Source: Mesoterricola silvestris (GTDB lineage: Bacteria > Acidobacteriota > Holophagae > Holophagales > Holophagaceae). From it: DNA of 64,000 nucleotides. The stretch is from positions 558,001 to 622,000 of the forward strand of contig NZ_AP027080.1 in NCBI RefSeq assembly GCF_030295405.1, given 5' to 3'. The translations under genes were made by a program, and so were the position numbers. The notes beneath the pieces were generated by a model. The model ran no database searches. It saw nothing but the letters and a program-made list of their open reading frames with translations, and had not been told where the DNA came from. Below are positions 9,813 to 31,941 of the stretch, in pieces. Position 1 is the stretch's first letter. Every line of letters begins with the position of its first letter.

Positions 9813-10532
9813 GTGGCCATCGAATTCACACCCGTCAAGACCAAGCGAATATATGAAGAGATCGCCGAGCAGATCCAGCAGCTCATCACCGGCGGCGAAC
9901 TGAAGCCCGGGGACAAGCTCATGTCCGAACGGGAACTGGCCGACCGGCTCCAGGTGAGCCGCGTCTCGGTGCGCGAAGCGATCCGGTCCATGGAGATGCT
10001 GGGGTTCATCGAGATCCGCCAGGGGGAGGGCACGTTCATCCGGGACGCCTCGGCCAACGAAGTGATCCGTCCCCTGGCCATGTTCCTGGCGGTGGAACGG
10101 GGTTCCCTCCTGGACATGTTCGAGGTGCGGCGCATCTTCGAGACCGCCACTTCTGCGCTGGCCGCGGAACGCGCCACGGACGAGGAGATCGAGCAGATAG
10201 GTATGCTCCTGGAGAAGATGAAGGATCGCATCCGGCAGGGAGACTCTGAAAAAGGAGAGGAATACGATGGAGCCTACCACTATGCCGTGGCCGAGGCGAC
10301 CCATAACAATCTTCTGATCAAACTCCTCCGCACCGTCCACGAGGAATGGAGCAAGGCGGTTTCCGCCGGGAGCCAGCAGCTGCTCCTGGACACCCCCAAC
10401 AACGCCCAGAAGATCATCGACCAGCACACCCGGGTCTTCGAGGCCATCCGGGCCCACGACGCCGAAACCGCCTCCAGGGCCATGCTCGAGCACGTGACCT
10501 TCGCGGAGCGGGAGATCCGCAAGCGCCTATAG
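9813..10532 (+). CDS. lldR: FadR-subfamily GntR regulator of lactate genes
   Basis: This 239-residue transcription factor has an N-terminal winged helix (YEEIAEQIQQLI, SERELADRLQVSRVSVREAI, GFIEIRQGEGTFI) at about residues 8-75. An all-helical FCD ligand domain fills about 90-235. I chose the GTG at 9813 because GAGG lies 7 bases upstream and it gives the usual family length; the reading frame stays open upstream to about 9612 but that part has no homologous look. The regulator diverges from the permease gene across a GGT-N3-ACC palindrome. It is convergent with lutC, overlapping its stop by six bases. Lactate as effector is inferred from the neighbours. Confidence 0.9.
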   Translation: MAIEFTPVKTKRIYEEIAEQIQQLITGGELKPGDKLMSERELADRLQVSRVSVREAIRSMEMLGFIEIRQGEGTFIRDASANEVIRPLAMFLAVERGSLLDMFEVRRIFETATSALAAERATDEEIEQIGMLLEKMKDRIRQGDSEKGEEYDGAYHYAVAEATHNNLLIKLLRTVHEEWSKAVSAGSQQLLLDTPNNAQKIIDQHTRVFEAIRAHDAETASRAMLEHVTFAEREIRKRL

Positions 10533-11186
10533 GTTGTCGACAAGCACCACCACCAGCCGCCGGGGACCGTGCACCCCGTAGGCCAGGGTCTGCTCGATGT
10601 CGGCGGTCTTGCTGGGACCGGAGATGAGGAGGGAGTTGCGGGCCGCGCCCCGTCCCCAGCCGCGGTGGCGCACCGCGGACCAGAGGGTGTCCTCGATGGT
10701 GGAGGCCAGCAGCAGCGCGATGTGCACCGGGGGCACCAGGGAGAGCAGGCGCGGTTCCTCGGGGCCGGGCTCCAGCAGGAGGCCTCCGGTTTCCGCCACC
10801 CCGGCCAGGGCGGTGGTGAAGCCCGCCGCCACGTCCTCGAAGAGCGCGGCCTTGAAGGTCTCCACCGGCTCCCGGTAGGGGATCAGCTCCGGATCCCGGG
10901 GCGTCCAGGCCGAGGCCAGGGCCTTCCCCGCGGAACTGGCGGGGCCGTAGAGGAGGTTCGGGAACCCCTGGTCCCGGCAGAAGCCGAGCACCACCGAGGG
11001 CCATTGGCCCGGAACGGCCTCCAGGAATTCCGTGTGCACGGCCTCCATGCCCCGGCGGAGCCGGGCCACCCGTTCCGCGGGGGGCCAGGCGCGGGCCGCC
11101 AGGACCTCGGTGGAGGGCAGGGGCACCGGTTCGCCACCGCCCCCGGCCCGGAGGCTTTCCAGGATCGTCGCGCGGGCGTCAGCCAT
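10527..11186 (-). CDS. lutC: LutC/YkgG-type LUD-domain protein
   Basis: This 219-residue protein is the third subunit of the LutABC L-lactate oxidation complex. It belongs to the LUD (LutC/YkgG) superfamily; the conserved C-terminal block with ISGPSKTADIEQTLAYGVHGP is clear. It is cytosolic and expected to act with LutA and LutB in converting L-lactate to pyruvate. Its start overlaps the end of lutB by 8 bp, so translation is probably coupled. Its stop overlaps the stop of the convergent regulator gene (CTATAG), leaving no room for a conventional terminator between them. The gene order lutA-lutB-lutC matches Bacillus and many proteobacteria. Confidence 0.92.
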   Translation of the reverse strand: MADARATILESLRAGGGGEPVPLPSTEVLAARAWPPAERVARLRRGMEAVHTEFLEAVPGQWPSVVLGFCRDQGFPNLLYGPASSAGKALASAWTPRDPELIPYREPVETFKAALFEDVAAGFTTALAGVAETGGLLLEPGPEEPRLLSLVPPVHIALLLASTIEDTLWSAVRHRGWGRGAARNSLLISGPSKTADIEQTLAYGVHGPRRLVVVLVDNL

Positions 11187-12606
11187 GGGGGATCCCCTCC
11201 TCTCTCACCCGTTCCTGCAGGGAGCGCCTCGCCGGCACCGGTTTGCCGCGGGCCAGGGTCCAGGCCTTGAGCAGGGGCAGGCCGCCGGGGATCAGGTTCC
11301 GGAACCGCGTGGCGCACCAGGCCGCGAACCGGTAGGCCCCGGGCCGGGAGAGCACGGCGGCCCAGACGCGCCAGGCCAGGTCCTCGGTGGCGGTCCTCCC
11401 GGTGCCCCGGCCTTCCACGGAGGAGCCCGGGTCCCGGTGGGTGGCCTCCCGGCGGAGGCGGACGATGATCTCGGGGATGGGGATCTCCACGGGGCACACC
11501 TCGGAGCAGGCTCCGCACAGGCTGGAGCCGTGGAGCAGCTCGTGGCGCACCCCCACCCCCTCCATCTGGGGCGTGAGGATCTTGCCGATGGGGCCGGGAT
11601 ACACGGCCTGGTACGCGTGGCCCCCCACCCGGGTGTACACCGGGCAGTGGTTCATGCACGCCCCGCAGCGGATGCAGCGCAGGGTGGCCCGCAGCTGGGG
11701 ATCCGCGTAGATGCGGGAACGGCCGTTGTCCAGGATCACCAGGTGGACCTCGCGGGGGCCGTCCAGCTCCCCGGGCCCGCGCGGGCCCCGGACGAGGTTG
11801 AGGTAGGTGCTCACGGCCTGACCCGTGGCGGAGCGGGTGAGGAGCGCGTAGAGGGGCGCCACGTCCTCCAGGGTCTCCACCACCTTCTCCAGCCCCATGA
11901 CGGCGATGTGCAGGGCCGGCACGTGGGTGCTCATGCGGCCGTTGCCCTCGTTCTCCACCAGGCAGAGGGTCCCGGTGTCCGCCACCGCGAAATTCACCCC
12001 CGAAAGCCCCGCGTCCGCCTCCAGGAACTTCCGGCGCAGCACCTTGCGGGCCAGGGCGGTGAGCTCGTCCACGTCCTCCGTATATTTGGCGTCCTTGATC
12101 TTCTGGCTGAACTGCCGGGCGATCTGGGTCTTGTTCTTGTGGATGGCCGGCATGATGATGTGGCTCGGCGTTTCCTGGTCCAGTTGGATGATGTACTCGC
12201 CCAGGTCCGATTCCAGGGCCTCCACCCCGTGCTCCTCAAGGAAATGGTTGAGCCCCATCTCCTCGGACACCATGGACTTGCCCTTGACCAGGCGGGTGGC
12301 GCCCCGGGCCCGCAGGAGGCCCAGGATGAGCTCGTTGCCCTCCTCGCAGGTGCGGGCCCAGTGCACCTGGATCCCGTTGCGCAGGCAGCTGGCCTCCAGC
12401 TGCTCCAGCAGTTCGGGCAGCTTCAGCAGGCTCCGGGCCCGGATGGCCGTGCCCAGGCTCCGCAGGGCCTGGAGGTCGGCGGGATCGGGGAACTGCGCGG
12501 CGCGCTTGGCCATGAGGCCGTCCATGGCCCGGCGGAAATTGGCCCGGATCTGGGGATCCCCCAGGGCCTGGGCGGCGGATTCCCGGAAGCCCGTCTCAGC
12601 GTGCAT
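11179..12606 (-). CDS. lutB: LutB iron-sulfur lactate utilization protein
   Basis: This 475-residue protein has an N-terminal LUD domain (about residues 70-300) and a C-terminal ferredoxin-like domain. The latter has two cluster motifs, CIRCGACMNHCPVY near residue 310 and CGACSEVCPVEIPIP near 360. It is the central electron-transfer subunit of the LutABC complex that oxidises L-lactate. The TTG/ATG region at 12606 overlaps the end of lutA by 11 bp and its end overlaps lutC, so the three genes form one tightly coupled operon. The length is normal for the family and no cysteine of the two motifs is missing. Confidence 0.93.
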   Translation of the reverse strand: MHAETGFRESAAQALGDPQIRANFRRAMDGLMAKRAAQFPDPADLQALRSLGTAIRARSLLKLPELLEQLEASCLRNGIQVHWARTCEEGNELILGLLRARGATRLVKGKSMVSEEMGLNHFLEEHGVEALESDLGEYIIQLDQETPSHIIMPAIHKNKTQIARQFSQKIKDAKYTEDVDELTALARKVLRRKFLEADAGLSGVNFAVADTGTLCLVENEGNGRMSTHVPALHIAVMGLEKVVETLEDVAPLYALLTRSATGQAVSTYLNLVRGPRGPGELDGPREVHLVILDNGRSRIYADPQLRATLRCIRCGACMNHCPVYTRVGGHAYQAVYPGPIGKILTPQMEGVGVRHELLHGSSLCGACSEVCPVEIPIPEIIVRLRREATHRDPGSSVEGRGTGRTATEDLAWRVWAAVLSRPGAYRFAAWCATRFRNLIPGGLPLLKAWTLARGKPVPARRSLQERVREEGIPHG

Positions 12607-21010: not shown

Positions 21011-21038
21011 TTGACACCTACGAATATGTTCGTATCTT
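21011..21038 (+). promoter_or_regulatory. Promoter with BlaI-type operator, copy 1
   Basis: TTGACA (21011-21016) and TATCTT (21033-21038) are 16 bp apart. TACGAA-TATG-TTCGTA (21019-21034) is a perfect palindrome that fills the spacer. A repressor of the BlaI/MecI type bound here would block polymerase. The same arrangement is repeated at 23289-23316 with almost identical sequence. Confidence 0.75.
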
Positions 21039-21061
21039 GGGGTCATCACCCCGGAGTCGCC

Positions 21062-21202
21062 ATGTGCCCCGACCCCATCCGTCCTTCGGACGGCGAGCTC
21101 GCCCTCCGCAGCGTCCCCTGGCGCCGGGGCCCCTCCACCGTGCGGGACGTGCCCATGGAACGGGCCCGGGAGCCCCACGCGGCGCCGCCGGAGGCGCCGT
21201 GA
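21062..21202 (+). pseudogene. Internally deleted BlaI-type repressor
   Basis: The 46-codon frame starts MCPDPIRPSDGELALRSVPW, matching the intact repressor at 23340 for its first 40 or so residues. It then jumps to the last few codons (..PPEAP) with about 84 codons missing. The start of the winged helix is kept but the recognition helix and dimerisation domain are lost, so it cannot act as a normal repressor. The TGA still overlaps the GTG of the following peptidase gene (GTGA), as in the intact copy, so it may survive as a leader that couples translation. Several substitutions (LRSVP for ILSVL) also suggest relaxed selection. Confidence 0.85.
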
Positions 21203-23253
21203 GCACCGCCGCCCTCGCCCCGTGGCTCCAGGCCTTCGCCTGGGGGCTGGTGCACTTCCTCTGGGAGGGCGCCCTCATCGGGTGCGCCACCTTCCTGGCG
21301 CTGCGCTTCGCCCACCGTCCGCAGACCCGGTACCTGGTGGCCTGCCTGGGCCTCCTGGCCATGGTCCTCGCCTTCCTGGCCACCGTCGTCGCCGCGCGGC
21401 CGGAGACCTTGGCCATCGAGCCGGCGACGACCTTCTCCGGGGTCGTCACCGTGGTGCCCCCGGATCTCCGGGAACGGCTCCATTCGCGGCTCCCGTGGAT
21501 CCTCCTGGCCTGGTCCGCCGGAAGCGGGGCCCTGGCGCTGAGGCTGGCGGCGGGGCTCCTGTGGCTCTACGGGCCCTGTCTCCGGAAGGCCCGCCCCGCG
21601 CCTGCCTCCCTGGAGGTCGACCTGGAGCGCCTCCGCGCGGCCTTCCGTCACGCCCGCCCCGTGCGGCTGCTGGTCTCCGACCTGGTGGACTCGCCCCTGG
21701 TGGTGGGATTCTGGCGGGCCGTCATCCTCGTGCCCGCCGCCGCCCTCCTGGCTCTGCCGGAGGCCTCCCTCGAGGCCGTCCTCGCCCACGAGCTCGCCCA
21801 CATCAAGCGCCAGGATTTCCTCCTGAACTTCCTCCAGAACGTCGCGGAGGTCGTCTTCTTCTTCCACCCGGCCGTGTGGTGGCTCTCCCGCGAGATCCGC
21901 GCGGAGCGGGAGCACTGCTGCGACGACGCCGCCGCGGCCCACTGCGGCGGGGGCCTGCGCTACGCCCAGGCCCTGGCCGACCTGGAAGCCCTGCGCCACG
22001 GACCCACCACCCAACTGGCCCCCTCGGGCCATGGAGGCTCCCTCTTGCACCGCATCAAACGCCTGGTCCTTCCCATGCTGCCCACCCAGACCCTCACCCG
22101 CCCCGGGCTCCTCGCCCTGGCCGCCGTCACCGTGCTCGCGACAGGCGTCCACTGGACGCCCCTCGTGGCCGCGCCTCCGGAACCGCCCCCCCAACCCGCC
22201 GTGGATTCGCCCAAGGCCATGCCCGCGGCACCCGCCCAGGCCGAGCCCACCCATGCCGCCCTCTACCAGCTGCCGCTGGAGGACCCCCCCGGCGCCGCCG
22301 CGCGGTCCTTCGCGGCGCCCCTCCCGGTCCCCGAAGTTCCCGCCCCGGCCCCCGCTCCCCGGCCGAGTGTCTCCCCGGGCCAGGCCCCGACGATCTGGCC
22401 CTTCGAGGGGAGGATCCCGGCCTTCGATTCCGCCCGGGTCTTCAGGGGCGTCACCGCCATCTTCGGGGGGGCGGAATTCGAGATCCCGCCCCACGCCCGG
22501 ATCACCCTCAAGCTCCGGCCCGATGGCGACAATTCCTTGGGGGCCTTCAGAATTGTGGTGCAACGGAAGGAACACCCGGAAGACAACGACCTCCGGTGGC
22601 TCACGAACACCTCCGATAAGGTCCAGTACGTGTACGTGAGCGTATTCCCGCCCCTGATCGTGCATCGCCACGGCGCTTTCAGTATCCTTCCCGGGGGGCC
22701 CTTCATCCTGGAGGTGGAGCGGAGCTGGGATCCGGCCGCCCTGGATCCCAGGGCGAAGGCGGTGGCCTTCACCCAGGCGGCCATCAAGGAGCTGCCCCTG
22801 GTCAAGATTGGTTCCATGCGAGTGCGGTCCCACCCGCGCAGCCTGGACTACCCCCCCGCGGCCCTGGCCGCCCGGATCGAGGGCTCGGTGCGATTGGAAC
22901 TGGTGGTGGACCGGGAGGGCTGGCCGGTCCAGGTAAAGGCCCTGGATGGGCCACCCGAGCTTCGTGCCGCCGCCGAGGACTATGGCTGGCGCTTCTCCTT
23001 CTCCACGCCGCCGGCCCGGAGGAAGTTCAAGGCCGTGCGGGTGGAAATGGCCGTGGACTTCCGCCTGGACCCGGCCGCCTCCACCACCCCGGACACCCCG
23101 GCCCCGCAGTCGGCCCTCCGGTTCAAAAGCGTCTTCATCCCGGCCCACGCCGAAATGGCGGCCATCCAGGGCAACGCGAGCCAGAACCGGTCCTTCTCCT
23201 TCGAGATCCCTCCCCACGCCCGCATCGGGCCGTGCGGGTCTCCTTTGACGTGA
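21199..23253 (+). CDS. M56 (BlaR1-like) metallopeptidase with TonB domain, chimeric end
   Basis: This 684-residue membrane protein has the BlaR1/MecR1-type M56 peptidase domain with several N-terminal membrane segments. The zinc motif HELAH lies near residue 196, and REIRAEREHCCDDAA follows. After a Pro/Ala-rich linker comes a domain with EIPPHARITLKLRP, then a TonB C-terminal-like domain (SLDYPPAALAARIEGSVRLELVVDREG...). BlaR1-type proteins sense a signal and inactivate the BlaI repressor. About 45 residues past the TonB domain duplicate part of the sibling gene (SVFIPAHAEMAAIQGNA.NRSFSFEIPPHARI), then stop after a frameshift (GPCGSPLT). The GTG start overlaps the stop of the decayed repressor. 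Function without that repressor is doubtful. Confidence 0.85.
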   Translation: MSTAALAPWLQAFAWGLVHFLWEGALIGCATFLALRFAHRPQTRYLVACLGLLAMVLAFLATVVAARPETLAIEPATTFSGVVTVVPPDLRERLHSRLPWILLAWSAGSGALALRLAAGLLWLYGPCLRKARPAPASLEVDLERLRAAFRHARPVRLLVSDLVDSPLVVGFWRAVILVPAAALLALPEASLEAVLAHELAHIKRQDFLLNFLQNVAEVVFFFHPAVWWLSREIRAEREHCCDDAAAAHCGGGLRYAQALADLEALRHGPTTQLAPSGHGGSLLHRIKRLVLPMLPTQTLTRPGLLALAAVTVLATGVHWTPLVAAPPEPPPQPAVDSPKAMPAAPAQAEPTHAALYQLPLEDPPGAAARSFAAPLPVPEVPAPAPAPRPSVSPGQAPTIWPFEGRIPAFDSARVFRGVTAIFGGAEFEIPPHARITLKLRPDGDNSLGAFRIVVQRKEHPEDNDLRWLTNTSDKVQYVYVSVFPPLIVHRHGAFSILPGGPFILEVERSWDPAALDPRAKAVAFTQAAIKELPLVKIGSMRVRSHPRSLDYPPAALAARIEGSVRLELVVDREGWPVQVKALDGPPELRAAAEDYGWRFSFSTPPARRKFKAVRVEMAVDFRLDPAASTTPDTPAPQSALRFKSVFIPAHAEMAAIQGNASQNRSFSFEIPPHARIGPCGSPLT

Positions 23254-23270
23254 ACTTCAAGATGAAGTGA
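23122..23270 (+). pseudogene. Remnant of a third M56-TonB copy
   Basis: The last part of the first peptidase gene encodes a segment (FKSVFIPAHAEMAAIQGNA...EIPPHARIG) that in the intact sibling lies upstream of the TonB domain. Directly after it, in another frame, the bases encode AVRVSFDVNFKMK followed by TGA, matching the sibling's very end (AVRVSVVVQFKMN). Both sides share CGGGC at the junction near 23227. The simplest reading is a lost copy whose middle, about 530 bp, was deleted through this short homology. Confidence 0.7.
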
Positions 23271-23288
23271 TTAAAATTTCCCGGCCCA

Positions 23289-23316
23289 TTGACACCTACG
23301 AATATGTTCGTATCTT
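23289..23316 (+). promoter_or_regulatory. Promoter with BlaI-type operator, copy 2
   Basis: TTGACA (23289-23294), the palindrome TACGAA-TATG-TTCGTA (23297-23312) and TATCTT (23311-23316) repeat the layout of copy 1 at the same distance before the repressor ATG. It should control the intact repressor and peptidase genes by autorepression. The shared operator means the surviving repressor could control both copies. Confidence 0.78.
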
Positions 23317-23339
23317 GGGTTCATCACCGCGGAGTCGCC

Positions 23340-23732
23340 ATGTGCCCCGATCCCATCCGTCCTTCGGACGGCGAGCTCGCCATTCTCAGCGTCCTCTGGC
23401 GCCGGGGCCCCTCCACCGTGCGGGACGTGCACACGGAACTGGCCCGGGAACGCGACCTGGGCTACACCACCGTCCTGAAGCTCATGCAGATCATGGCGGA
23501 AAAGGGCATGGTCACGAGGGACGCCTCGGCCATGACCCACGTCTACACCGCGGCCCGGGACCAGGAGCCCACCCAGGCCTTCCTGGTCCAGGACCTGGTC
23601 CGCCGCGCCTTCGCGGGCAGCGCCAAGGACCTCATGGTCCGGGCCCTGGAGTCCCACGCGGCCTCCGTGAGCGAACTTGACGAGATCCAGCGGCTGCTCG
23701 ACGCGGCCCGCCGGAAGGCGGAGGCCCCATGA
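23340..23732 (+). CDS. BlaI/MecI-family repressor
   Basis: This is a 130-residue repressor with the BlaI winged helix: SDGELAILSVLWRRGPSTVRDVHTEL...LGYTTVLKLMQIMAEKGMVTRD at residues 9-65, then a C-terminal dimerisation part. Proteins of this family bind a palindromic operator and are cleaved or released when the partner M56 peptidase is activated. The ATG at 23340 stands 24 bp after the -10 box of the operator-containing promoter. The TGA overlaps the ATG of the peptidase gene (ATGA), so both are translated together. In many bacteria such pairs regulate functions other than beta-lactam resistance; no beta-lactamase gene is nearby. Confidence 0.92.
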   Translation: MCPDPIRPSDGELAILSVLWRRGPSTVRDVHTELARERDLGYTTVLKLMQIMAEKGMVTRDASAMTHVYTAARDQEPTQAFLVQDLVRRAFAGSAKDLMVRALESHAASVSELDEIQRLLDAARRKAEAP

Positions 23733-25618
23733 CCACCGCCTCCCTCGCCCCCTGGCTCCAGGCCTTCGCGTGGGCCCTGGTGCACTTCCTCTGGGAGGGC
23801 GCCCTCCTGGGGTGCGCCGCGTTCCTGGCGCTGCGCTTCGCGCGCCGCCCCGGGACCCGGTACCTGGTGGCCTGCATGGGCCTCGTGGCCATGGTCCTGG
23901 CCTTCCTCGCCACCCTCTTCCTGGCGGTCCCGGAGGCCACGGTGATCCAGGCGCCCGCGGCCTTCTCCGGAACCCTCACCGTCCTGCCTCCGGATCTCCG
24001 GGAGCGGTTGTACGCGCAGCTGCCCCGGATCCTCCTGGCCTGGTCGGCCGGAAGCGCGGTCCTGGCCCTGCGCCTGGGGGCCGGACTCCTGTGGCTCTAC
24101 GGCCCCTGCCTGCGCGGGGCCACGGCGCCCCCGGAAGCCCTGGAGGCGTGCCTGGACCGCCTCCGCCAGGCCTTCGCCCACGACCGCCCCGTGCGGCTCC
24201 GGGTGTCGGACCTGGTGGACTCCCCCCTGGTGCTGGGCTTCTGGCGGGCCGTCATCCTCGTTCCCACCGCGGCCCTCCTCTCCCTGCCGGAGGCCACCCT
24301 GGAAGCCGTCCTCGCCCACGAACTGGCCCACGTGAGGCGCCGTGACTTCCTGGTGAACTTCCTCCAGAACCTCGCCGAAGTCGTTTTCTTCTTCCACCCC
24401 GCCGTGTGGTGGCTCTCCCGCGAGATCCGCGCGGAGCGGGAGCACTGCTGCGACGACGCCGCCGCGGTCCACTGCGGCGGGGGCCTGCGCTTCGCCCAGG
24501 CCCTGGCCGACCTGGAAGCCCTGCGCCACGGACCCACCACCCAACTGGCCCCTTCGGGCCACGGAGGCTCCCTCATGCACCGCATCAAACGCCTGCTCCT
24601 GCCCGTGCTCCCCGCCCAGACCCTCACCCGGCCCGGCCTCCTGGCCCTGGCCGCCGTCGCCGTCCTGGGGGGCGGTGTGCACTGGACGCCCCTGGAGGCC
24701 ACCCCCCCCGCGCCCCCCGCGCCGCCCGTGGAGGCCGTTCAGGCCCCGGTCCCGGCCCCCGCTCCGGAGGCTCCCGCCGTGGCCCTGGCGGCCCTCCACG
24801 CCGCCCCTTCCGTGGACCTGCCCGCGCCCCGGGCGGCCCTGGAAGTCCCGCCCCCGCCCGCCGTTCCCGCCCCCGCGGCGAGGGTGGCGGAGCCCCGCCG
24901 GGACCTGCCCCCGCCGGCCCCGCGCCCCGCCTTCCAAGGCAAGGGCGTGTTCGTCCCGGCCCACGCGGGGATGGTGTCCATCCAGGGCAACGCGAACCTG
25001 AACCGGTCCTTCTCCTTCGAGATCCCGCCCCACGCCCGCATCGGGCTGGACGTGAAGTCCGCCGGGAAGATCCCCCGCTCCACGTACCACCTGGAGGTGG
25101 TTCGCCAGCACGGCCCGCGCGGCTTCAATGAGCGCGCCTTCAACAACACGTCCGACCGCGCCGTCATCGTCGATGTGGAGGTCGTGCCCACCCGGAAGTT
25201 CAACGACGGACCCGGCCTGTCCCTGGATCCCATCGAGGCGGGCCTCTTCACGATCCAGGTGACCCGCACCTGGGATCCCGCCGGCCAGGACCCTCGGGCC
25301 CTGGCCGGGCCCTTCCCCAAGGGCGGCCTGGAGGCGCTGCCCGAGCTGCCCAACGCCGATCTCCAGGTGGCCTACCGCCCCGAGAAGCCCGTGTATCCCC
25401 CCGCCGCCCTCGCCGCCAAGGAGGAAGGCACCGTGAAACTGCGGATGGCGGTGGGAAAGGACGGCAACCCTCTTTTCGTGGAGAGCCAGGGCGGCACCCC
25501 GGAGTTCCGGGCGGCCGCGGAAGCCTTCGTGTGGCGCTGGGTGTTCTTCCCGCCCCGCATCGGGGGGGAGAACCGGGCCGTGCGGGTCTCCGTGGTCGTG
25601 CAATTCAAGATGAATTAA
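23729..25618 (+). CDS. M56 (BlaR1-like) metallopeptidase with TonB domain
   Basis: This 629-residue protein has N-terminal membrane segments around the M56 zinc peptidase (VLAHELAHVRRRDFL near residue 196; REIRAEREHCCDDAA near 230). A long Pro/Ala-rich linker (about 325-400) leads to a domain with FVPAHAGMVSIQGNANLNRSF, then a TonB C-terminal-like domain (PEKPVYPPAALAAKEEGTVKLRM...). It should sense a periplasmic signal and relieve repression by the repressor whose gene overlaps its start. The TonB part suggests contact with the outer membrane or cell wall. It is very similar at DNA level to the gene at 21199, in places identical over 60 bases or more, showing a recent tandem duplication. This copy is intact. 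Confidence 0.9.
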   Translation: MTTASLAPWLQAFAWALVHFLWEGALLGCAAFLALRFARRPGTRYLVACMGLVAMVLAFLATLFLAVPEATVIQAPAAFSGTLTVLPPDLRERLYAQLPRILLAWSAGSAVLALRLGAGLLWLYGPCLRGATAPPEALEACLDRLRQAFAHDRPVRLRVSDLVDSPLVLGFWRAVILVPTAALLSLPEATLEAVLAHELAHVRRRDFLVNFLQNLAEVVFFFHPAVWWLSREIRAEREHCCDDAAAVHCGGGLRFAQALADLEALRHGPTTQLAPSGHGGSLMHRIKRLLLPVLPAQTLTRPGLLALAAVAVLGGGVHWTPLEATPPAPPAPPVEAVQAPVPAPAPEAPAVALAALHAAPSVDLPAPRAALEVPPPPAVPAPAARVAEPRRDLPPPAPRPAFQGKGVFVPAHAGMVSIQGNANLNRSFSFEIPPHARIGLDVKSAGKIPRSTYHLEVVRQHGPRGFNERAFNNTSDRAVIVDVEVVPTRKFNDGPGLSLDPIEAGLFTIQVTRTWDPAGQDPRALAGPFPKGGLEALPELPNADLQVAYRPEKPVYPPAALAAKEEGTVKLRMAVGKDGNPLFVESQGGTPEFRAAAEAFVWRWVFFPPRIGGENRAVRVSVVVQFKMN

Positions 25619-25639: not shown

Positions 25640-25668
25640 TTGACATCCTGACCCGCCGGTCCACAATT
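25640..25668 (+). promoter_or_regulatory. Putative rex promoter
   Basis: TTGACA at 25640-25645 is followed 17 bp later by ACAATT at 25663-25668, a weak -10. The -10 overlaps the left end of the 38-bp palindrome, so a protein bound there would block transcription of rex and the hydrogenase genes. Confidence 0.5.
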
Positions 25669-25701
25669 GCTACCGTGGTATCGATACCACGGTAGCAATT
25701 G
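25664..25701. promoter_or_regulatory. 38-bp perfect palindrome before rex
   Basis: Starting CAATTGCTACCGTGGTATC, the 38 bases are their own reverse complement with no spacer (centre ATCGAT). It lies between the -35 box and the ribosome-binding site of rex. It may be an operator, for Rex itself or another dimeric or tetrameric regulator, or act in the RNA as a hairpin just upstream of GGGAGG. It is longer than the usual 18-20-bp Rex site (TTGTGA-N6-TCACAA), and only a loose resemblance can be seen in its centre. Confidence 0.7.
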
Positions 25702-25715
25702 AAAGGGAGGCGGGC

Positions 25716-26357
25716 ATGGCATACGGGTACAAGATCGGGAGCCTCCCGCTCACCACCGTCCAGCGCCTCCCCAGCTACCTGCGCGTCGTGCGGGAGATGC
25801 GCCGGCTGGGCCGGGAGGTGGTGTCCAGCGCCCGCCTGGGCGAGCTGCTGGGGCTGGAGGCCGTGCAGGTGCGCAAGGACTTCGGCTTCATCGGCATCAC
25901 CGGCATGCCCAAGATGGGCTACCAGGTGGAGGAGCTGGTCCTGGCCATCGAGCACTGCCTGAACTGGAACCAGGTGCGGGACGCGGTGCTGGTGGGCGTG
26001 GGGCACCTGGGCATGGCCCTCCTGGGCTACGAGGGCTTCCGGGCCCACGGGCTGGACATCTGCGCGGCCTTCGACATCGACCCGTCCCTGGCGGGGCTGG
26101 TGGTGAACGGCACCCCCGTGTGGCACATGGACCAGCTGGAATCCGAACTGCGCCGCCTCGACGCGCGCATGGCCATCCTCACCGTCTCCCCCGACGCCGC
26201 CCAGGACGTGGCCCTGCGCCTGGCCCGGGCGGGCATCGAAGGCATCTGGAATTTCACCGGGTGCCCGCTGGACCTGCCCCCGGACGTCATCGTCCAGGAC
26301 CAGGACATCGCCATCGGCCTCGCCGTGCTTTCCGCCAAACTCTCCTCCCGGACCTAG
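25716..26357 (+). CDS. rex: Redox-sensing transcriptional repressor Rex
   Basis: This 213-residue repressor has an N-terminal winged helix (LPSYLRVVREMRRLGREVVSSARLGELLGLEAVQVRKDFGFIG, residues 16-60) with the signature QVRKDFGFIG. A Rossmann NAD(H) domain starts at VLVGVGHLGMALLGY near residue 92. Rex leaves its operator when NADH rises and controls fermentative and hydrogen-metabolism genes. The ATG has GGGAGG 6 bases upstream. The gene is first of a six-gene run that ends with a group B hydrogenase, separated by 24 bp or less or overlapping, so it is likely auto-regulated and controls the hydrogenase genes. Confidence 0.95.
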   Translation: MAYGYKIGSLPLTTVQRLPSYLRVVREMRRLGREVVSSARLGELLGLEAVQVRKDFGFIGITGMPKMGYQVEELVLAIEHCLNWNQVRDAVLVGVGHLGMALLGYEGFRAHGLDICAAFDIDPSLAGLVVNGTPVWHMDQLESELRRLDARMAILTVSPDAAQDVALRLARAGIEGIWNFTGCPLDLPPDVIVQDQDIAIGLAVLSAKLSSRT

Positions 26358-26381
26358 GTCCGTCCCACGAAAGGGCTCACC

Positions 26382-26624
26382 ATGCCTGATGCCGAAGGCC
26401 TGCCCACGCTCACCATCTGCCTGGGGAGCTCCTGCTTCACCCGGGGCAACGACGCGATGCTGCCCCGCCTCCAGGCCTTCCTCAAGCGCAAGGGGCTGGA
26501 GGGGACCGTGGCCCTGCGGGGCGCGCGGTGCGAAGGGCGCTGCCAGCACGGCCCGAACCTGCGCCTGGGGGAGACCTTCCTGGACCCGGCCACCTGCCTG
26601 GAGGACCTGGAGAAGGCGCTGTGA
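26382..26624 (+). CDS. Thioredoxin-like [2Fe-2S] ferredoxin, first copy
   Basis: This 80-residue protein has the thioredoxin-like ferredoxin fold of NuoE and HydC C-terminal domains. Its four cysteines are in the expected spacing: C-x4-C in TICLGSSCF and C-x3-C in ARCEGRCQHGP. It should carry one [2Fe-2S] cluster and pass electrons to or from the hydrogenase-like proteins encoded around it. Its TGA overlaps the GTG of the HydS gene (GTGA), which implies translational coupling and a one-to-one functional link. A second, similar gene precedes the group B hydrogenase at 29481. Confidence 0.88.
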   Translation: MPDAEGLPTLTICLGSSCFTRGNDAMLPRLQAFLKRKGLEGTVALRGARCEGRCQHGPNLRLGETFLDPATCLEDLEKAL

Positions 26625-28306
26625 GGCCCGGACCGGTCTATTCCGAACAGGCCCAGTGCCAGGACTGCTACAAGTGCGTGCGGGCCTGCCCGGTCAAGGC
26701 CATCCGGGTCAGCTCGGCCCACGCCGTGGTGATGCCCGAGCGGTGCCTGGCCTGCGGGGCCTGCGTCTCGGCCTGCCCCAGCGGCGCCAAGCGCGTGCGG
26801 GACGACCTGCCCCTGGTGGAGGCCCTGCTGCGGGGGGACCGCCCCGTGGTGGCCTCCCTGGCGCCCTCCTATCTCAGTGAATTCCCCGGGGGGCCCGGCC
26901 GGATCATCGCCGCCCTCAAGCGCCTGGGCTTCGCCGGCGTGAGCGAGACGGCCCTGGGGGCCCAGGAGGTGTCGGCGCGGCTGGCCCAGGACCTGGACGC
27001 CCACACCGGCCGCATCTGGATCTCCACCGCCTGCCCCGTGGCGGTGGACTACGTGCGCACGTACCTGCCCGAACGCATCCCCGACCTCACCCCCCTGGAT
27101 TCCCCCCTGCTGGCCCACGTGCGGCTCCTGCGGGCGGAACTGGGGGAGGCGCCCGTGGTCTTCATCGGCCCCTGCATCGCCAAGAAGCTGGAGGTGGAGG
27201 AGGCTCCGACCCTGGCCGCCGCCCTCACCTTCGAGGACCTGCGGCGCTGGCTGGACCGGGAGGGCATCGACCCCCTGGACCTGGAGCCGGAGGGCGACTT
27301 CCTCCTGGGGCCGGCCGCCGAAGGCTCCCTCTACCCCATCGAAGGGGGCATGGCCCGGGCCACGGCCCTGAACATGGCCACCGGCGACACCCGCTTCGTC
27401 ACCCTCAGCGGCCTGGGCCCCATCCGGGAGGCCCTGGCGGACCTGCCCGCGCCCCGGGGCAATGTCTTCCTGGAACTGCTGGCCTGCCCCGGGGGCTGCG
27501 TGAACGGCCCCGCGGCGCGGCGCTCCCCGGTGGGGGCCCGCATGGCGGTGCTGGACGGGGCCTCCGAGGCCCCCGGCGCCTACCCCCGAGAACCCGCGGT
27601 GCCCCTGGAGCGGGGCTTCACCGCCCGGGTGCCGCCGGCAGCGGGGATCCCCGAAGGCCGCCTGGAGGCCGCCCTGCGGCGCCTGGGCAAGACGGGCCCC
27701 GGGGACGAACTGAACTGCGGCGCCTGCGGGTACGACACCTGCCGGGACCTGGCCGGGGCCATCCTGGGGGGCCGGGCCGAGACGCGCATGTGCGTGTCCA
27801 ACCTCCGCCGCCTCGCCGAGAAGAAGGCCAACGCCCTGCTGCGCACCCTCCCCTTCGGGGTGGTGATCGTGGACGAGGAGCTGCGCATCATCGAAAGCAA
27901 CGACCAGTTCGTGCGGCTCCTGGGCGAGGAGGCCGCGCTGGTGGCCGAGACCCAGCCCGGCCTTTGCGGCGCCCACATCGAGAAGCTCGTGGACTTCGGC
28001 GGGCGCTTCCGGGAGGTGCTGGAAGGCGGCGACGAACTCATCCGCCAGAACCTGGCCAGCGCCGGGGGGACCCTCAGCGCCACCATCTTCACCGTCGAGC
28101 CGGGCCACGTGGTGGGGGCGCTCCTCCTGGACGTCACCGAAACCGAGGCCCGGCAGAAGGAGATGGTGGGCAAGGCCGAGGAGGTCATCCAGAACATGCT
28201 CGCCAACGCCCAGGAGATCGCCTTCAGCCTGGGGCGCAACGCCGCCCGCAGCGAGGGGATCCTCAATTCCATCATCGCGGAGTTCCGGGGGCCCCATGGA
28301 GCCTGA
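26621..28306 (+). CDS. hydS: Sensory group C [FeFe]-hydrogenase-like protein (HydS)
   Basis: This 561-residue protein has two [4Fe-4S] ferredoxin motifs (CQDCYKCVRACP, CLACGACVSACP; residues 13-60), then an H-cluster domain. The cluster ligands are in STACP near 135, GPCIAKK near 182 and ACPGGC near 287. The first motif has Ala where catalytic enzymes have the proton-transfer Cys (TSCCP), as in known sensory group C proteins. A four-Cys motif (CGACGYDTC near 366) and a PAS domain (about 395-510) complete it. It is thus more likely an H2/redox sensor than a turnover enzyme. The start is GTG, inside the stop of the [2Fe-2S] gene; the end overlaps the phosphatase gene by 11 bp. Confidence 0.88.
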   Translation: MRPGPVYSEQAQCQDCYKCVRACPVKAIRVSSAHAVVMPERCLACGACVSACPSGAKRVRDDLPLVEALLRGDRPVVASLAPSYLSEFPGGPGRIIAALKRLGFAGVSETALGAQEVSARLAQDLDAHTGRIWISTACPVAVDYVRTYLPERIPDLTPLDSPLLAHVRLLRAELGEAPVVFIGPCIAKKLEVEEAPTLAAALTFEDLRRWLDREGIDPLDLEPEGDFLLGPAAEGSLYPIEGGMARATALNMATGDTRFVTLSGLGPIREALADLPAPRGNVFLELLACPGGCVNGPAARRSPVGARMAVLDGASEAPGAYPREPAVPLERGFTARVPPAAGIPEGRLEAALRRLGKTGPGDELNCGACGYDTCRDLAGAILGGRAETRMCVSNLRRLAEKKANALLRTLPFGVVIVDEELRIIESNDQFVRLLGEEAALVAETQPGLCGAHIEKLVDFGGRFREVLEGGDELIRQNLASAGGTLSATIFTVEPGHVVGALLLDVTETEARQKEMVGKAEEVIQNMLANAQEIAFSLGRNAARSEGILNSIIAEFRGPHGA

Positions 28307-29468
28307 GGCCCGCTTCATCGAGGTGGACCACTTCGGCCTGGCCTGCGGCGGGGAGCACCTTTCGGGCGACCTCTTCCACTCCCGCAGCCTGGAGGACGGC
28401 CACCGGGTGGTCTCGGTGCTGGCCGACGGCCTCAGCAGCGGCGTGGAGGCCGCGGTGCTGGCCTCGGTGACGGCCTCCATGGCCCTGGAGTACGTGGAGT
28501 GGAACATCGACACCGCCAAGGCCGCCGCCATCCTCATGGATTCCCTGCCGGTGGACCCCGTGCGCCGCATCAGCTACTCCACCTTCACCATCGTGGATGC
28601 GCGCAGGGACGGCCGCACCCGGGTCTTCGAGCACGGCAACCCGCCCTTCCTGCTCATCCGGGACGGGGCCATCCTGCCCCTGGAGAGCACCGTCCTGTCC
28701 CAGCCCCGGTGGGGCAACCGGCGCCTCATCGTGAGCGAATTCCAGAGCCGCGTGGGCGACCGCCTCGTGCTCTGCTCCGACGGGGTGACCCAGTCCGGCA
28801 TGGGCACCCCCGCCCATCCCCTGGGGTGGGGCGAGCCCCAGGCCGCGGCCTTCGCCCTGGACTGGCTGGCCCGGGACCCGGACCTCTCCAGCCGGCGCCT
28901 CGCCGAGCTCCTGGTGGACCAGGCCCTGGGCCTCGACGGCGGCGAGGCCGGGGACGACATCACCTGCGGCGTCATCCACCTGCGCCGGCCCCGGATCCTC
29001 CACGTCCTCACGGGCCCCCCCTTCGACCGGGCCCGGGACCGGGACTTCGCGGCCCTGGTGGAGGCCCCCGGCGCCCGCAAGGTGGTGTGCGGCGGCACCA
29101 CCTCCAATATCCTGGCCCGGGAACTGAACCGGGACGTGGAAATGGACCTGTCCCTCCACGACCGGGACGTGCCCGCGCCCTCCACCATGGCCGGCGTGGA
29201 ACTGGTCACCGAGGGCTGCCTGACCCTGGCCAAGGTGGGGGAGTACCTGGAGGCCGGCGCCTGCCCCCGGCGCAACGCCGCCTCGCGCCTCGTGGAGCTG
29301 CTCCTGGAATCGGACGTCATCCACTTCCAGGTGGGCACCGCCGTGAACGAGGCCCACCAGGACCCGGCCCTGCCCGTGGAACTGGACATCCGCCGCAACG
29401 TCATCAAGCGCATCGCGGCCCTGCTGGAGACGCGGCACCTGAAGAAGACGCTGCTCTCCTACTACTGA
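28296..29468 (+). CDS. SpoIIE-family PP2C phosphatase with C-terminal extension
   Basis: This 390-residue protein has an N-terminal SpoIIE/PP2C-type serine phosphatase domain (about residues 1-230). The metal-binding aspartates sit in VLADGLSSGVEAA, LVLCSDGVTQSG and AGDDITCGVIHL. The remaining 160 residues (from PRILHVLTGPPF) form a separate domain with VCGGTTSNILARELNRDV that I cannot assign. PP2C genes beside HydS-type hydrogenases are a known association in anaerobes. The 11-bp overlap with the HydS gene suggests that the PAS domain of HydS controls this phosphatase. The protein substrate is unknown; no kinase gene is adjacent. Confidence 0.87.
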   Translation: MEPEARFIEVDHFGLACGGEHLSGDLFHSRSLEDGHRVVSVLADGLSSGVEAAVLASVTASMALEYVEWNIDTAKAAAILMDSLPVDPVRRISYSTFTIVDARRDGRTRVFEHGNPPFLLIRDGAILPLESTVLSQPRWGNRRLIVSEFQSRVGDRLVLCSDGVTQSGMGTPAHPLGWGEPQAAAFALDWLARDPDLSSRRLAELLVDQALGLDGGEAGDDITCGVIHLRRPRILHVLTGPPFDRARDRDFAALVEAPGARKVVCGGTTSNILARELNRDVEMDLSLHDRDVPAPSTMAGVELVTEGCLTLAKVGEYLEAGACPRRNAASRLVELLLESDVIHFQVGTAVNEAHQDPALPVELDIRRNVIKRIAALLETRHLKKTLLSYY

Positions 29469-29480
29469 TCCGGAGGTCCC

Positions 29481-29741
29481 ATGGAACCCGTCACCGTGAC
29501 CATCTGCATGGGCACCGCCTGCGTCGTCATGGACGGTTCGCGCCTCGTGCTCCTGGAGGAGCACCTTCCCGAGCGCCTCCGGGGCCGTGTGAGGATCCGG
29601 GGCGAGCGCTGCCTGGAGCTCTGCACCCGCCACTCCGCGGCCCGGGCCCCCTTCGTCCTGGTGGACGGCGAGCCCCTGGCCAACGCCACCTTCGAGGGCA
29701 TCGTCGCGCGCATCGAGGACGTCCTGGCGGGGAGGGCGTGA
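29481..29741 (+). CDS. Thioredoxin-like [2Fe-2S] ferredoxin, second copy
   Basis: This is an 86-residue thioredoxin-like ferredoxin with the same cysteine spacing as the protein at 26382: TICMGTACV (C-x4-C) and GERCLELCTRH (C-x3-C). It should bind one [2Fe-2S] cluster and probably serves the group B hydrogenase, whose ATG follows its stop after one base. GGAGGTCCC precedes its ATG. Having one such ferredoxin directly before each hydrogenase-like gene suggests the two were duplicated as a unit and then diverged. Confidence 0.87.
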   Translation: MEPVTVTICMGTACVVMDGSRLVLLEEHLPERLRGRVRIRGERCLELCTRHSAARAPFVLVDGEPLANATFEGIVARIEDVLAGRA

Positions 29742-29742
29742 C

Positions 29743-31143
29743 ATGGCCCACCCCGCCACCACCACCCGGCTCCGGCGGGAGCTCCTGGTGAAGACCGCCG
29801 AAGCGCTGCGCGCCGGGGACCTGCCCGGGCGCGTGGACCGCTTCCCCCTGGAACTGCGCCCCCGGGGCGAGACCGCCCTGCGCTGCTGCGTGCACCGGGA
29901 GCGGGCCGTGCTGCGGTACCGGGCCATGGCCCTCCTGGGATTTTCCGTGCAGGACGAGGAGGACGAGCTGCGCCCCCTGGCGCACTACGCCCGGGACGCC
30001 CAGGCCCGCACGTCCCGGGATCCGCGCCTGCTTACGGTCATCGAGGAGGCCTGCAGCGCCTGCGTGCGCGCCGCCTACTTCGTGAGCAACGCCTGCCGCG
30101 GCTGCGCCGCCCAGTCCTGTGCCGTGGCCTGCCCGAAACAGGCCATCACCGTGCGGGACGGCCAATCCGCCATCGATCCCGCCCGCTGCGTCAACTGCGG
30201 CAAGTGCAAGGACGTCTGCGCCTTCAACGCCATCCTCCGGATCCCCATCCCCTGCGAGGAGGCCTGCCCGGTGCAGGCCATCGTGCGGGGCCCCTCCGGC
30301 AAGCAGGAGATCCGCCACGATCTCTGCATCGCCTGCGGCAAGTGCATGCAGGCCTGCCCCTTCGGGGCCGTGGCCGAGCAGTCCGAAGTGGTGGAGGTGC
30401 TGGGCGCCCTGGCGGAAGGCAGGCCCCTGGTGGCCCTCTTCGCCCCGGCCCTGGCCGCCCAGTTCCAGGCCCCCCTGGAGCACCTGGTGGGGGCCCTGCG
30501 GCGCCTAGGCTTCGCGGGGACCGTGGAGGTGGCCGCCGGGGCCGACCTGGCCGCCCAGGCCGAGCGGCGCGAACTGGAGGAGGCGCCCTTCCTCACCAGC
30601 TCCTGCTGCCCCGCCTACACGGGCCTGGTGGCCTCCCGCCTGCCGGCGCTGGCCCCCCGGGTGTCCACCACCCCCACGCCCCTGGCCTTCGCCGCGAAGC
30701 TGGCCGCCCAGCGCTTCCCGGGCCTGCCCCGGGTCTTCCTCAGCCCCTGCGTGGCCAAGCGCCGGGAGGCCCTGGGGGGCTCCGTGGAGCACGTGCTCAC
30801 CTTCGAGGAGCTGGGGGCGGCCCTGGTGGCCTGGGGCATCGAAGTGGACGCCTGCCCACCGTCCCCCGCCGATATCCCGGCCACGGACCGGGGCCGGGCC
30901 TTCGCCGCGGCGGGGGGGGTGGCCGCCGCCGTGGGGGCCGACGCGGAGGTGCTCTGCGGCCTGGGCGCCGAAACCCAGCGGCGCCTGCGGCTCTACGCCT
31001 CCGGCAAGGGCCCCGCCCGGTTCCTGGAGGTCATGGCCTGCGAGGGCGGCTGCATCGCCGGGCCCTGCACCCTCGCCGACCCCAAGGTGGCCCGCCGGCG
31101 CATCCCCGCCGCCCCGGACCGGGATCCGGGGCGGCCGGTGTGA
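29743..31143 (+). CDS. Group B monomeric [FeFe]-hydrogenase
   Basis: This 466-residue protein has an N-terminal part of about 95 residues typical of the B1 type and a cysteine-rich region with [4Fe-4S] motifs (CVNCGKCKDVC, CIACGKCMQACPF). The H-cluster domain has TSSCCPAY near 286, SPCVAKRRE near 334 and MACEGGC near 430. All cluster cysteines and the proton-transfer cysteine are present, so hydrogen turnover is possible. Group B enzymes occur in anaerobes and are thought to evolve H2 from ferredoxin, but few are characterised. Maturation genes (hydE, hydF, hydG) are not in the window. It ends three bases from the convergent SDR gene. Confidence 0.88.
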   Translation: MAHPATTTRLRRELLVKTAEALRAGDLPGRVDRFPLELRPRGETALRCCVHRERAVLRYRAMALLGFSVQDEEDELRPLAHYARDAQARTSRDPRLLTVIEEACSACVRAAYFVSNACRGCAAQSCAVACPKQAITVRDGQSAIDPARCVNCGKCKDVCAFNAILRIPIPCEEACPVQAIVRGPSGKQEIRHDLCIACGKCMQACPFGAVAEQSEVVEVLGALAEGRPLVALFAPALAAQFQAPLEHLVGALRRLGFAGTVEVAAGADLAAQAERRELEEAPFLTSSCCPAYTGLVASRLPALAPRVSTTPTPLAFAAKLAAQRFPGLPRVFLSPCVAKRREALGGSVEHVLTFEELGAALVAWGIEVDACPPSPADIPATDRGRAFAAAGGVAAAVGADAEVLCGLGAETQRRLRLYASGKGPARFLEVMACEGGCIAGPCTLADPKVARRRIPAAPDRDPGRPV

Positions 31144-31146
31144 CGC

Positions 31147-31941
31147 CTATTTGGCGATGCCCTTGGGGTAGCAGAGCCCGCCGGTGATCTCGATGGTCGT
31201 GGCGTTGAGGGCCTCGTTCTCCGCGGCGGTGCCGATGATGGAGGCGATCTCCTCGGGGGCCACCAGGCGGCCCAGGTGCACGTCCGCGAGGATGGCCTTG
31301 AGGGCGTCCTGGTTCATGCCCGTGAGCATGGGCGTGGCGGTGTAGCCCGGCGCGATGGCCACGCAGCGGATGTTGCGGATGCCGCGCATGAGGAACTCCC
31401 CGATGATGATCTTGGGCATCAGGGCGTCGGCCACCTTGGCCGAGGAGTAGTTGATCTGCCCCACCTGGCCGCACTTGTTCACGGAGGAGATGGGCACCAG
31501 CAGCCCGGGCCAGCCGCCGTTGACCATGGCCTCCGCGGCGTCCCGCATCGTGAGGAAGGTGCCCGTGAGGTTGGTGTCGATGACCGCGGCCCACTTGTCC
31601 AGGCCCAGCTTCTTGGAGACCTGGCCCGTCTCCTTGTCCAGGCTCAGCATCGTCCCGTCCCGGATGATGCCGGCGCTGGACACGCAGATGTTGAGCTGGC
31701 CGAAGGCCTCCAGGGTGCCCTGGATGAACCGGGCCGTGTCCGCCTCGCTGGTGACGTTGGCCTGGATGCCGATGCACTCGGCGCCCATCTCCTTGACCTC
31801 CTTCACCACGCGGTCGATGTTCTTCTGGACCATGTCGACGATGGCCACCTTGGCGCCCCGCTTGGCGAAGTACTTGACCACGGCCTCGCCGATGCCGTTG
31901 CCTCCGCCCGTGACGAGAACGACGCTTCCCTTGATTTCCAT
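31147..31941 (-). CDS. Short-chain dehydrogenase/reductase (SDR)
   Basis: This is a 264-residue classical SDR. The nucleotide motif TGGGNGIG lies near residue 10, a variant of NAG (SSAGI) near 88, the catalytic serine in ISSVN near 150, and the YSSAK catalytic pair near 168. It should oxidise a hydroxyacyl-CoA or reduce a ketone with NAD(P). It has an insertion around residues 100-115 (LDKETGQVSKKLGLDKW). It is preceded on the same strand by a thiolase and a small unknown gene, so a beta-oxidation-like step (hydroxyacyl to ketoacyl, then thiolysis) is likely. Similar pairs occur in aromatic-compound pathways, but nothing here proves that. Confidence 0.88.
   Translation of the reverse strand: MEIKGSVVLVTGGGNGIGEAVVKYFAKRGAKVAIVDMVQKNIDRVVKEVKEMGAECIGIQANVTSEADTARFIQGTLEAFGQLNICVSSAGIIRDGTMLSLDKETGQVSKKLGLDKWAAVIDTNLTGTFLTMRDAAEAMVNGGWPGLLVPISSVNKCGQVGQINYSSAKVADALMPKIIIGEFLMRGIRNIRCVAIAPGYTATPMLTGMNQDALKAILADVHLGRLVAPEEIASIIGTAAENEALNATTIEITGGLCYPKGIAK

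Follow-up and report, generated by a model that had tools for sequence, protein, structure and literature searches.

Organization of the locus

The locus lies in a window of 64,000 nucleotides from the genome of the anaerobe Mesoterricola silvestris and consists of six genes on the forward strand. In order these are rex (25716–26357), trx1 (26382–26624), the gene for a sensory [FeFe]-hydrogenase, HydS (26621–28306), a phosphatase gene (28296–29468), trx2 (29481–29741) and the gene for a group B [FeFe]-hydrogenase (29743–31143). The most likely start of HydS is the GTG at 26621, which overlaps the trx1 stop, and the HydS and phosphatase frames overlap by 11 bases. The gaps are short as well, with 24 bases between rex and trx1, 12 between the phosphatase gene and trx2, and 1 between trx2 and the group B gene. 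A promoter-like site on the forward strand, TTGACA-N16-CACAAT (25640–25667), matches 10 of 12 consensus positions and is the only one between 25000 and 32300, a region of 7.3 kb in which 0.2 would be expected. Its TTGACATCC and CACAATTG are kept in two other Holophagaceae, UBA692 (L013) and G097 (L034). In the same 7.3 kb no terminator-like site was found, and the SDR gene that follows the group B hydrogenase (31147–31941) is convergent. The first-pass annotation had grouped the six overlapping or closely spaced genes in one unit; their coordinates, the overlaps or gaps of 1–24 bases, the one promoter and the lack of a terminator-like site bear this out, and it is very likely that the six genes form a single operon behind one promoter. 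Because the same order is conserved in other genomes, it is not a product of chance.

Just upstream (21037–25618) are two genes for M56 peptidases (BlaR1-like) with a TonB C-terminal domain. The second is preceded by a BlaI-type repressor, and the pair is an apparent tandem duplication.

Encoded proteins

The first gene is predicted to encode Rex, the NADH/NAD+-sensing repressor. This assignment is secure, as the product combines a winged helix with an NAD(H)-binding Rossmann domain, scores 229 bits against NF003994 (cut-off 130) and matches CoA_binding and Put_DNA-bind_N in Pfam. The two trx genes encode thioredoxin-like [2Fe-2S] proteins. The trx1 product matches PF01257 just under the cut-off (E 1.5e-4), while that of trx2 is HoxE-like (E 2e-4) and matches PF01257 below the cut-off (E 0.017). 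A trx1-type gene directly before HydS is conserved in most loci, and a trx2-type gene between the phosphatase and the group B hydrogenase in many. The earlier claim that each hydrogenase-like gene is preceded by its own thioredoxin-like gene thus holds for the presence and position of both, with trx2 weak in Pfam.

HydS consists of two [4Fe-4S] sites, an H-domain (PF02906, 129 bits; PF04060), a Cx2Cx4Cx16C motif, a PAS domain (PAS_8, 21.6 bits, just under the cut-off of 21.8) and a conserved coiled-coil tail. The Cx2Cx4Cx16C motif has been described for the HydS class (PMC8163306). In the alignment every cysteine ligand of the H-cluster is present. Where catalytic enzymes have T-S-C-C-P, HydS reads ACC-GCC-TGC-CCC (T-A-C-P), with the alanine codon at 27029–27031. 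The alanine in place of the proton-transfer cysteine, together with a PAS domain, had been noticed at first reading, and both observations stand with the PAS_8 score as given. This alanine is ordinary, because about 43% of sensory sequences share it and TmHydS, which also carries it, is still active (PMC10055695). The maturases HydF (529 bits) and HydG (662 bits) are encoded elsewhere in the same genome, so an H-cluster could be built. A PAS domain and a Cx2Cx4Cx16C motif after the H-domain, with an altered proton-transfer cysteine, are the features of group C sensory enzymes, and by architecture HydS is assigned to group C3 of HydDB, in which an H-domain and PAS protein has a linked Ser/Thr phosphatase (PMC5037454).

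The group B enzyme is a monomeric hydrogenase with TSSCCP and catalytic-type H-cluster motifs. It matches TIGR04105 over residues 5–461 of 462 and PF02906 with 126.5 bits. The TIGR04105 score of 441 bits far exceeds that of every other hydrogenase model, but lies 9 bits below the curated cut-off of 450; the description of a full, catalytic-type group B enzyme therefore fits in length and motifs and falls slightly short in score.

The phosphatase is of the SpoIIE type (PF07228, 48 bits), with the PP2C domain at residues 1–230. Its model (pLDDT 83.5) resembles SpoIIE structures 5ucg (Z 24.1) and 3pu9 (Z 24.9), and the metal-binding Asp motifs are kept, all of which agrees with the earlier reading of a SpoIIE phosphatase overlapping HydS. 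Residues 229–390 (28980–29465) form a second, C-terminal domain, which modelled alone reaches a pLDDT of 90.6. Its motifs TGPP, GGTT, VTEG and NEAHQD are conserved in nearly all homologues. No Pfam family covers this domain, and Foldseek returned no match below E 0.001. In VIA-align the best match is to FhcB (Z 10.6, 2.9 Å over 115 residues), followed by FwdB and NuoG domains at about 8.9. This likeness may amount to no more than a shared Rossmann-like arrangement and says nothing about function. The domain was matched 16 times in 12 genomes, always within this phosphatase and never apart from it. Clustering of 410 neighbouring ORFs revealed no recurrent kinase, STAS or anti-sigma partner, and a target encoded in cis was rejected on this basis.

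Promoter palindrome and Rex operators

A perfect 38-bp palindrome (25664–25701) overlaps the −10 box and the presumed transcription start, and occurs once in the 5-Mb genome. The palindrome recurs in UBA692 with symmetric changes, G to A in one arm and C to T in the other, while in G097 the promoter and the palindrome core are kept and the rest differs. The 10-base core, GTATCGAYAY, has no more than three occurrences in the genome, all of them immediately preceding hydrogenase operons (25678–25687 in the window, 15484–15493 in L009 and 11441–11450 in L012), although the pattern was shaped on these three sites and the count is no independent test. In 13 other genomes its matches are mostly scattered, with hydrogenase promoters among them (G097, UBA692 and G316). 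An RNA hairpin is less likely here, since the presumed transcription start falls inside the left arm, and a terminator is unlikely, since no T-run follows. The palindrome is a candidate operator of the operon, with Rex as the first candidate to bind it.

The M. silvestris genome encodes eight H-domain proteins, and three of its other hydrogenase loci bear on this candidate. L009 (rex-hydCBA-trx-HydS-phosphatase) resembles the window operon in its Rex (44% identical), HydS (48%), phosphatase (45%) and operator core; however, its partner enzyme is an electron-bifurcating NuoE-NuoF-HydA set rather than a group B hydrogenase. The bifurcating HydA of this locus (10288–12312) carries a fused C-terminal thioredoxin-like [2Fe-2S] domain and is followed by a separate trx and then HydS. 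L010 (7875–17589) combines rex-hydCBA with a HydS–histidine kinase fusion, which by architecture belongs to class C1. Unlike at the other rex loci of the genome, its Rex operator, TTGTGACGTCCGTCACAC, is close to the canonical form. L012, a hydrogenase operon, has the core but no rex.

No canonical Rex operator (TTGTGA-N6-TCACAA type) was found before the window operon, where the best site matches 7 of 10 positions and is not above shuffles; Rex control here therefore rests on the palindrome as a putative operator. The missing canonical site bears on the regulatory site and not on the membership of the protein in the Rex family. One could suppose that Rex heads the operon without controlling it, and that the palindrome belongs to another regulator, for instance of the CRP/FNR family, common to the three hydrogenase operons. 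The palindrome and its core are indeed unlike the canonical site that is nearly realized at L010, and L012 shares the core while lacking rex. However, two of the three core-bearing promoters directly precede rex genes, and the Rex of L010, a paralogue about 33% identical to that of the window, is further removed. Equivalent operons in Bacillota, moreover, have clear Rex sites: operators matching all 10 informative positions precede ten of them (L100–L105, L110, L118, L119 and L124), including the group B operons L118 and L124. We consider a different regulator possible, though less likely than not. Among the 71 phosphatase genes examined, 26 have rex within 7.5 kb. The comparison with Bacillota makes the probable link to Rex stronger than it would be from the window alone.

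Relation to known systems

The operon adds a further case, from a different phylum, to a type of control unit studied in ethanol-producing clostridia. That HydS-phosphatase neighbours are known, as the first-pass annotation said, is confirmed by hfsABCD (PMC5707799, PMC11837493) and by the phosphatase-linked class C3 of HydDB (PMC5037454). In Thermoanaerobacterium saccharolyticum and T. thermosaccharolyticum, hfsABCD encodes, in the same order as here, a small protein, a HydS with a PAS domain, a serine phosphatase and a ferredoxin-linked hydrogenase (PMC5707799, PMC11837493). In the window, likewise, a HydS with H-domain and PAS is followed in one unit by a SpoIIE/PP2C phosphatase and a ferredoxin-type [FeFe]-hydrogenase. 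The window operon differs in its heading rex and its two thioredoxin-like genes. By position trx1 would correspond to hfsA, whose product has been described as unlike known proteins (PMC5707799, PMC11837493), and HydS, the phosphatase and the group B gene would be the equivalents of hfsB, hfsC and hfsD, respectively.

Strains deleted for hfsA or hfsB express more adhE and make more ethanol, and hydrogenase activity goes up when hfsB is lost (PMC5707799); these genetics agree with HfsA and HfsB acting together in regulation. Of the four genes, hfsD by itself is enough to bring back the ethanol phenotype in T. thermosaccharolyticum deleted for hfsABCD (PMC11837493). The phosphatase is thus dispensable for that phenotype, and the output may be carried by the hydrogenase instead. 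A similar cluster in Ruminococcus albus encodes a group C sensory hydrogenase with PAS, a phosphatase and a ferredoxin-only hydrogenase, but comprises eight genes including adhE, which the window operon lacks, and its hydrogenase is assigned to group A1 (PMC6776011). Its HydS, phosphatase, hydrogenase and adhE genes fall 111-fold in co-culture with an H2 consumer, so that expression tracks H2 (PMC6776011). In C. bescii, [FeFe]-hydrogenase genes are repressed by Rex (PMC6391272). The suggestion that little has been described of a coupling to Rex and to a second, group B enzyme within one unit was too strong, given the deletion genetics of hfsABCD (PMC5707799, PMC11837493), the equivalent cluster of R. 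albus (PMC6776011) and class C3 of HydDB (PMC5037454).

Distribution and gene order

The phosphatase profile matches 9 of 396 genomes of Acidobacteriota, 8 of these in Holophagaceae, as well as 121 of 398 in the phylum of Faecalicatena (Bacillota) and 15 of 149 in Spirochaetota. Gene order and a phosphatase tree were compared for 71 phosphatase genes. The cassette trx-HydS-phosphatase-trx-group B is present in Holophagaceae, Spirochaetota, Thermotogota and Bacillota; some loci have lost one of the two trx genes. The exact six-gene order with rex first, a search for which had been proposed at the outset, occurs in three Holophagaceae (M. silvestris, UBA692 and G097) and at a spirochaete locus (L086). 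At other loci the partner is a bifurcating NuoE-NuoF-HydA set, or there is no hydrogenase nearby. In the tree the window gene groups with loci of Spirochaetota and Thermotogota, many of the group B type, and judging from these comparisons the type of partner hydrogenase has changed more than once.

Some loci have no hydrogenase gene nearby, either as HydS-phosphatase pairs (L036, L037 and L038) or as rex-trx-HydS-phosphatase (L032 and L035), so the target of HydS and phosphatase there must be elsewhere. A gene for an adhE-type alcohol/aldehyde dehydrogenase adjoins the cassette at L014, L118 and L121, in agreement with the published link between hfsB and adhE.

This distribution also bears on whether HydS senses at all. 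It could instead be a slow or biased catalytic hydrogenase, with the phosphatase acting on unrelated targets and the operon being a set of merely co-expressed redox genes. The relatives TamHydS and TmHydS do turn over H2, slowly (PMC8163306, PMC10055695), and we count the lack of a known phosphatase target in favour of this reading. Nevertheless it appears quite improbable, as the adjacency of HydS and phosphatase is kept across four phyla with any partner hydrogenase or none, the PAS domain and tail are conserved, and deletion of hfsB raises hydrogenase activity rather than lowering it (PMC5707799).

Loci without a hydrogenase domain

Three loci in Spirochaetota (L096, 3145–14755; L097, 585–13211; L098, 32–8923) and one in Acidobacteriota (L040, 20–1933) consist of trx, a stand-alone PAS protein and the phosphatase, with no H-domain. 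The PAS proteins are of 167–186 amino acids and have a coiled-coil tail as in HydS. In the spirochaetes the set belongs to a CODH/ACS operon that also encodes NuoE, NuoF and a NuoG-like Fe-S protein. No description of such sets was found in the open-licence literature searched. Apparently, then, the PAS-phosphatase module can do without a domain that binds H2; H2 need not be the signal, and cannot be the sole possible input of the module.

A general sensor of electron poise is accordingly conceivable. In such a sensor trx, PAS and phosphatase would respond to how reduced the [2Fe-2S] protein is, with ferredoxin or NADH as the source of electrons, and the H-domain would be an optional addition that links the sensor to H2 where its partner enzyme is a hydrogenase. 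Besides the four loci above, this would account for trx being the most constant neighbour of the sensor gene and for the shared phenotype of hfsA and hfsB deletions (PMC5707799). We judge it less likely than not. Wherever else the sensor gene is intact, it keeps a full H-domain, which would be costly if unused, and the PAS-only systems are lineages apart from the window phosphatase in the tree.

A broader joint proposal, which seems unlikely in its entirety, takes trx-PAS-PP2C as a general redox-to-phosphorylation module that serves electron-bifurcating and carbon-fixing complexes of anaerobes and has an exchangeable hydrogenase domain. H2-reading versions would accompany hydrogenases, and versions without the H-domain would accompany NuoEF and CODH/ACS in acetogenic-type operons. 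It also includes a private operator in Holophagaceae, the palindrome, that ties their hydrogenase operons together and would probably be bound by divergent Rex paralogues, and a conserved C-terminal phosphatase domain that would act as a second, undescribed input.

Proposed function

Sequence comparison shows one compact, probably singly transcribed unit that pairs a sensory hydrogenase of the C3 type with a PP2C phosphatase and includes a catalytic-type group B hydrogenase. A redox and H2 control unit is the best reading of the six genes, within which a relay is plausible. Taken together with the mechanism below, we think it likely that this is an H2-sensing hydrogenase operon of the hfsABCD type, headed by its own rex. 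At high NADH, Rex would come off its operator, for which the 38-bp palindrome is the most likely site, and so allow expression of the operon. At the H-cluster, the trx1 protein and HydS would sense the pressure of H2 or the electron poise; the extra Fe-S site, the PAS domain and the coiled-coil tail would then carry the signal on to the phosphatase. By dephosphorylating a target encoded in trans, the phosphatase would adjust hydrogenase and fermentation genes. The trx2 protein would serve the group B enzyme, which would dispose of electrons as H2 and be both effector and part of the feedback. Rex would thus set the amount of the unit that is made, and HydS with the phosphatase the extent of feedback by H2.

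This explanation is supported by the gene families, the overlapping frames, the one promoter and the SpoIIE fold with its Asp residues; by the same cassette order in four phyla, rex near 26 of 71 phosphatase genes and the Rex operators of Bacillota; and by the presence of HydF and HydG, the hfs deletions (PMC5707799), the 111-fold response in R. albus (PMC6776011) and Rex in C. bescii (PMC6391272). It is weakened because there is no canonical Rex operator here and no recurrent target or kinase beside the loci, because hfsD alone rescues (PMC11837493), and because PAS-phosphatase pairs occur without an H-domain.

The operon bears on how strict anaerobes choose between H2 and other products, and HydS has been proposed as the sensor of H2. 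The comparative map shows Rex and HydS-phosphatase control recurring on the same operons in several phyla. The sister loci without a hydrogenase domain make the input of the PAS-phosphatase pair directly testable, and may deserve more attention than the original six-gene finding.
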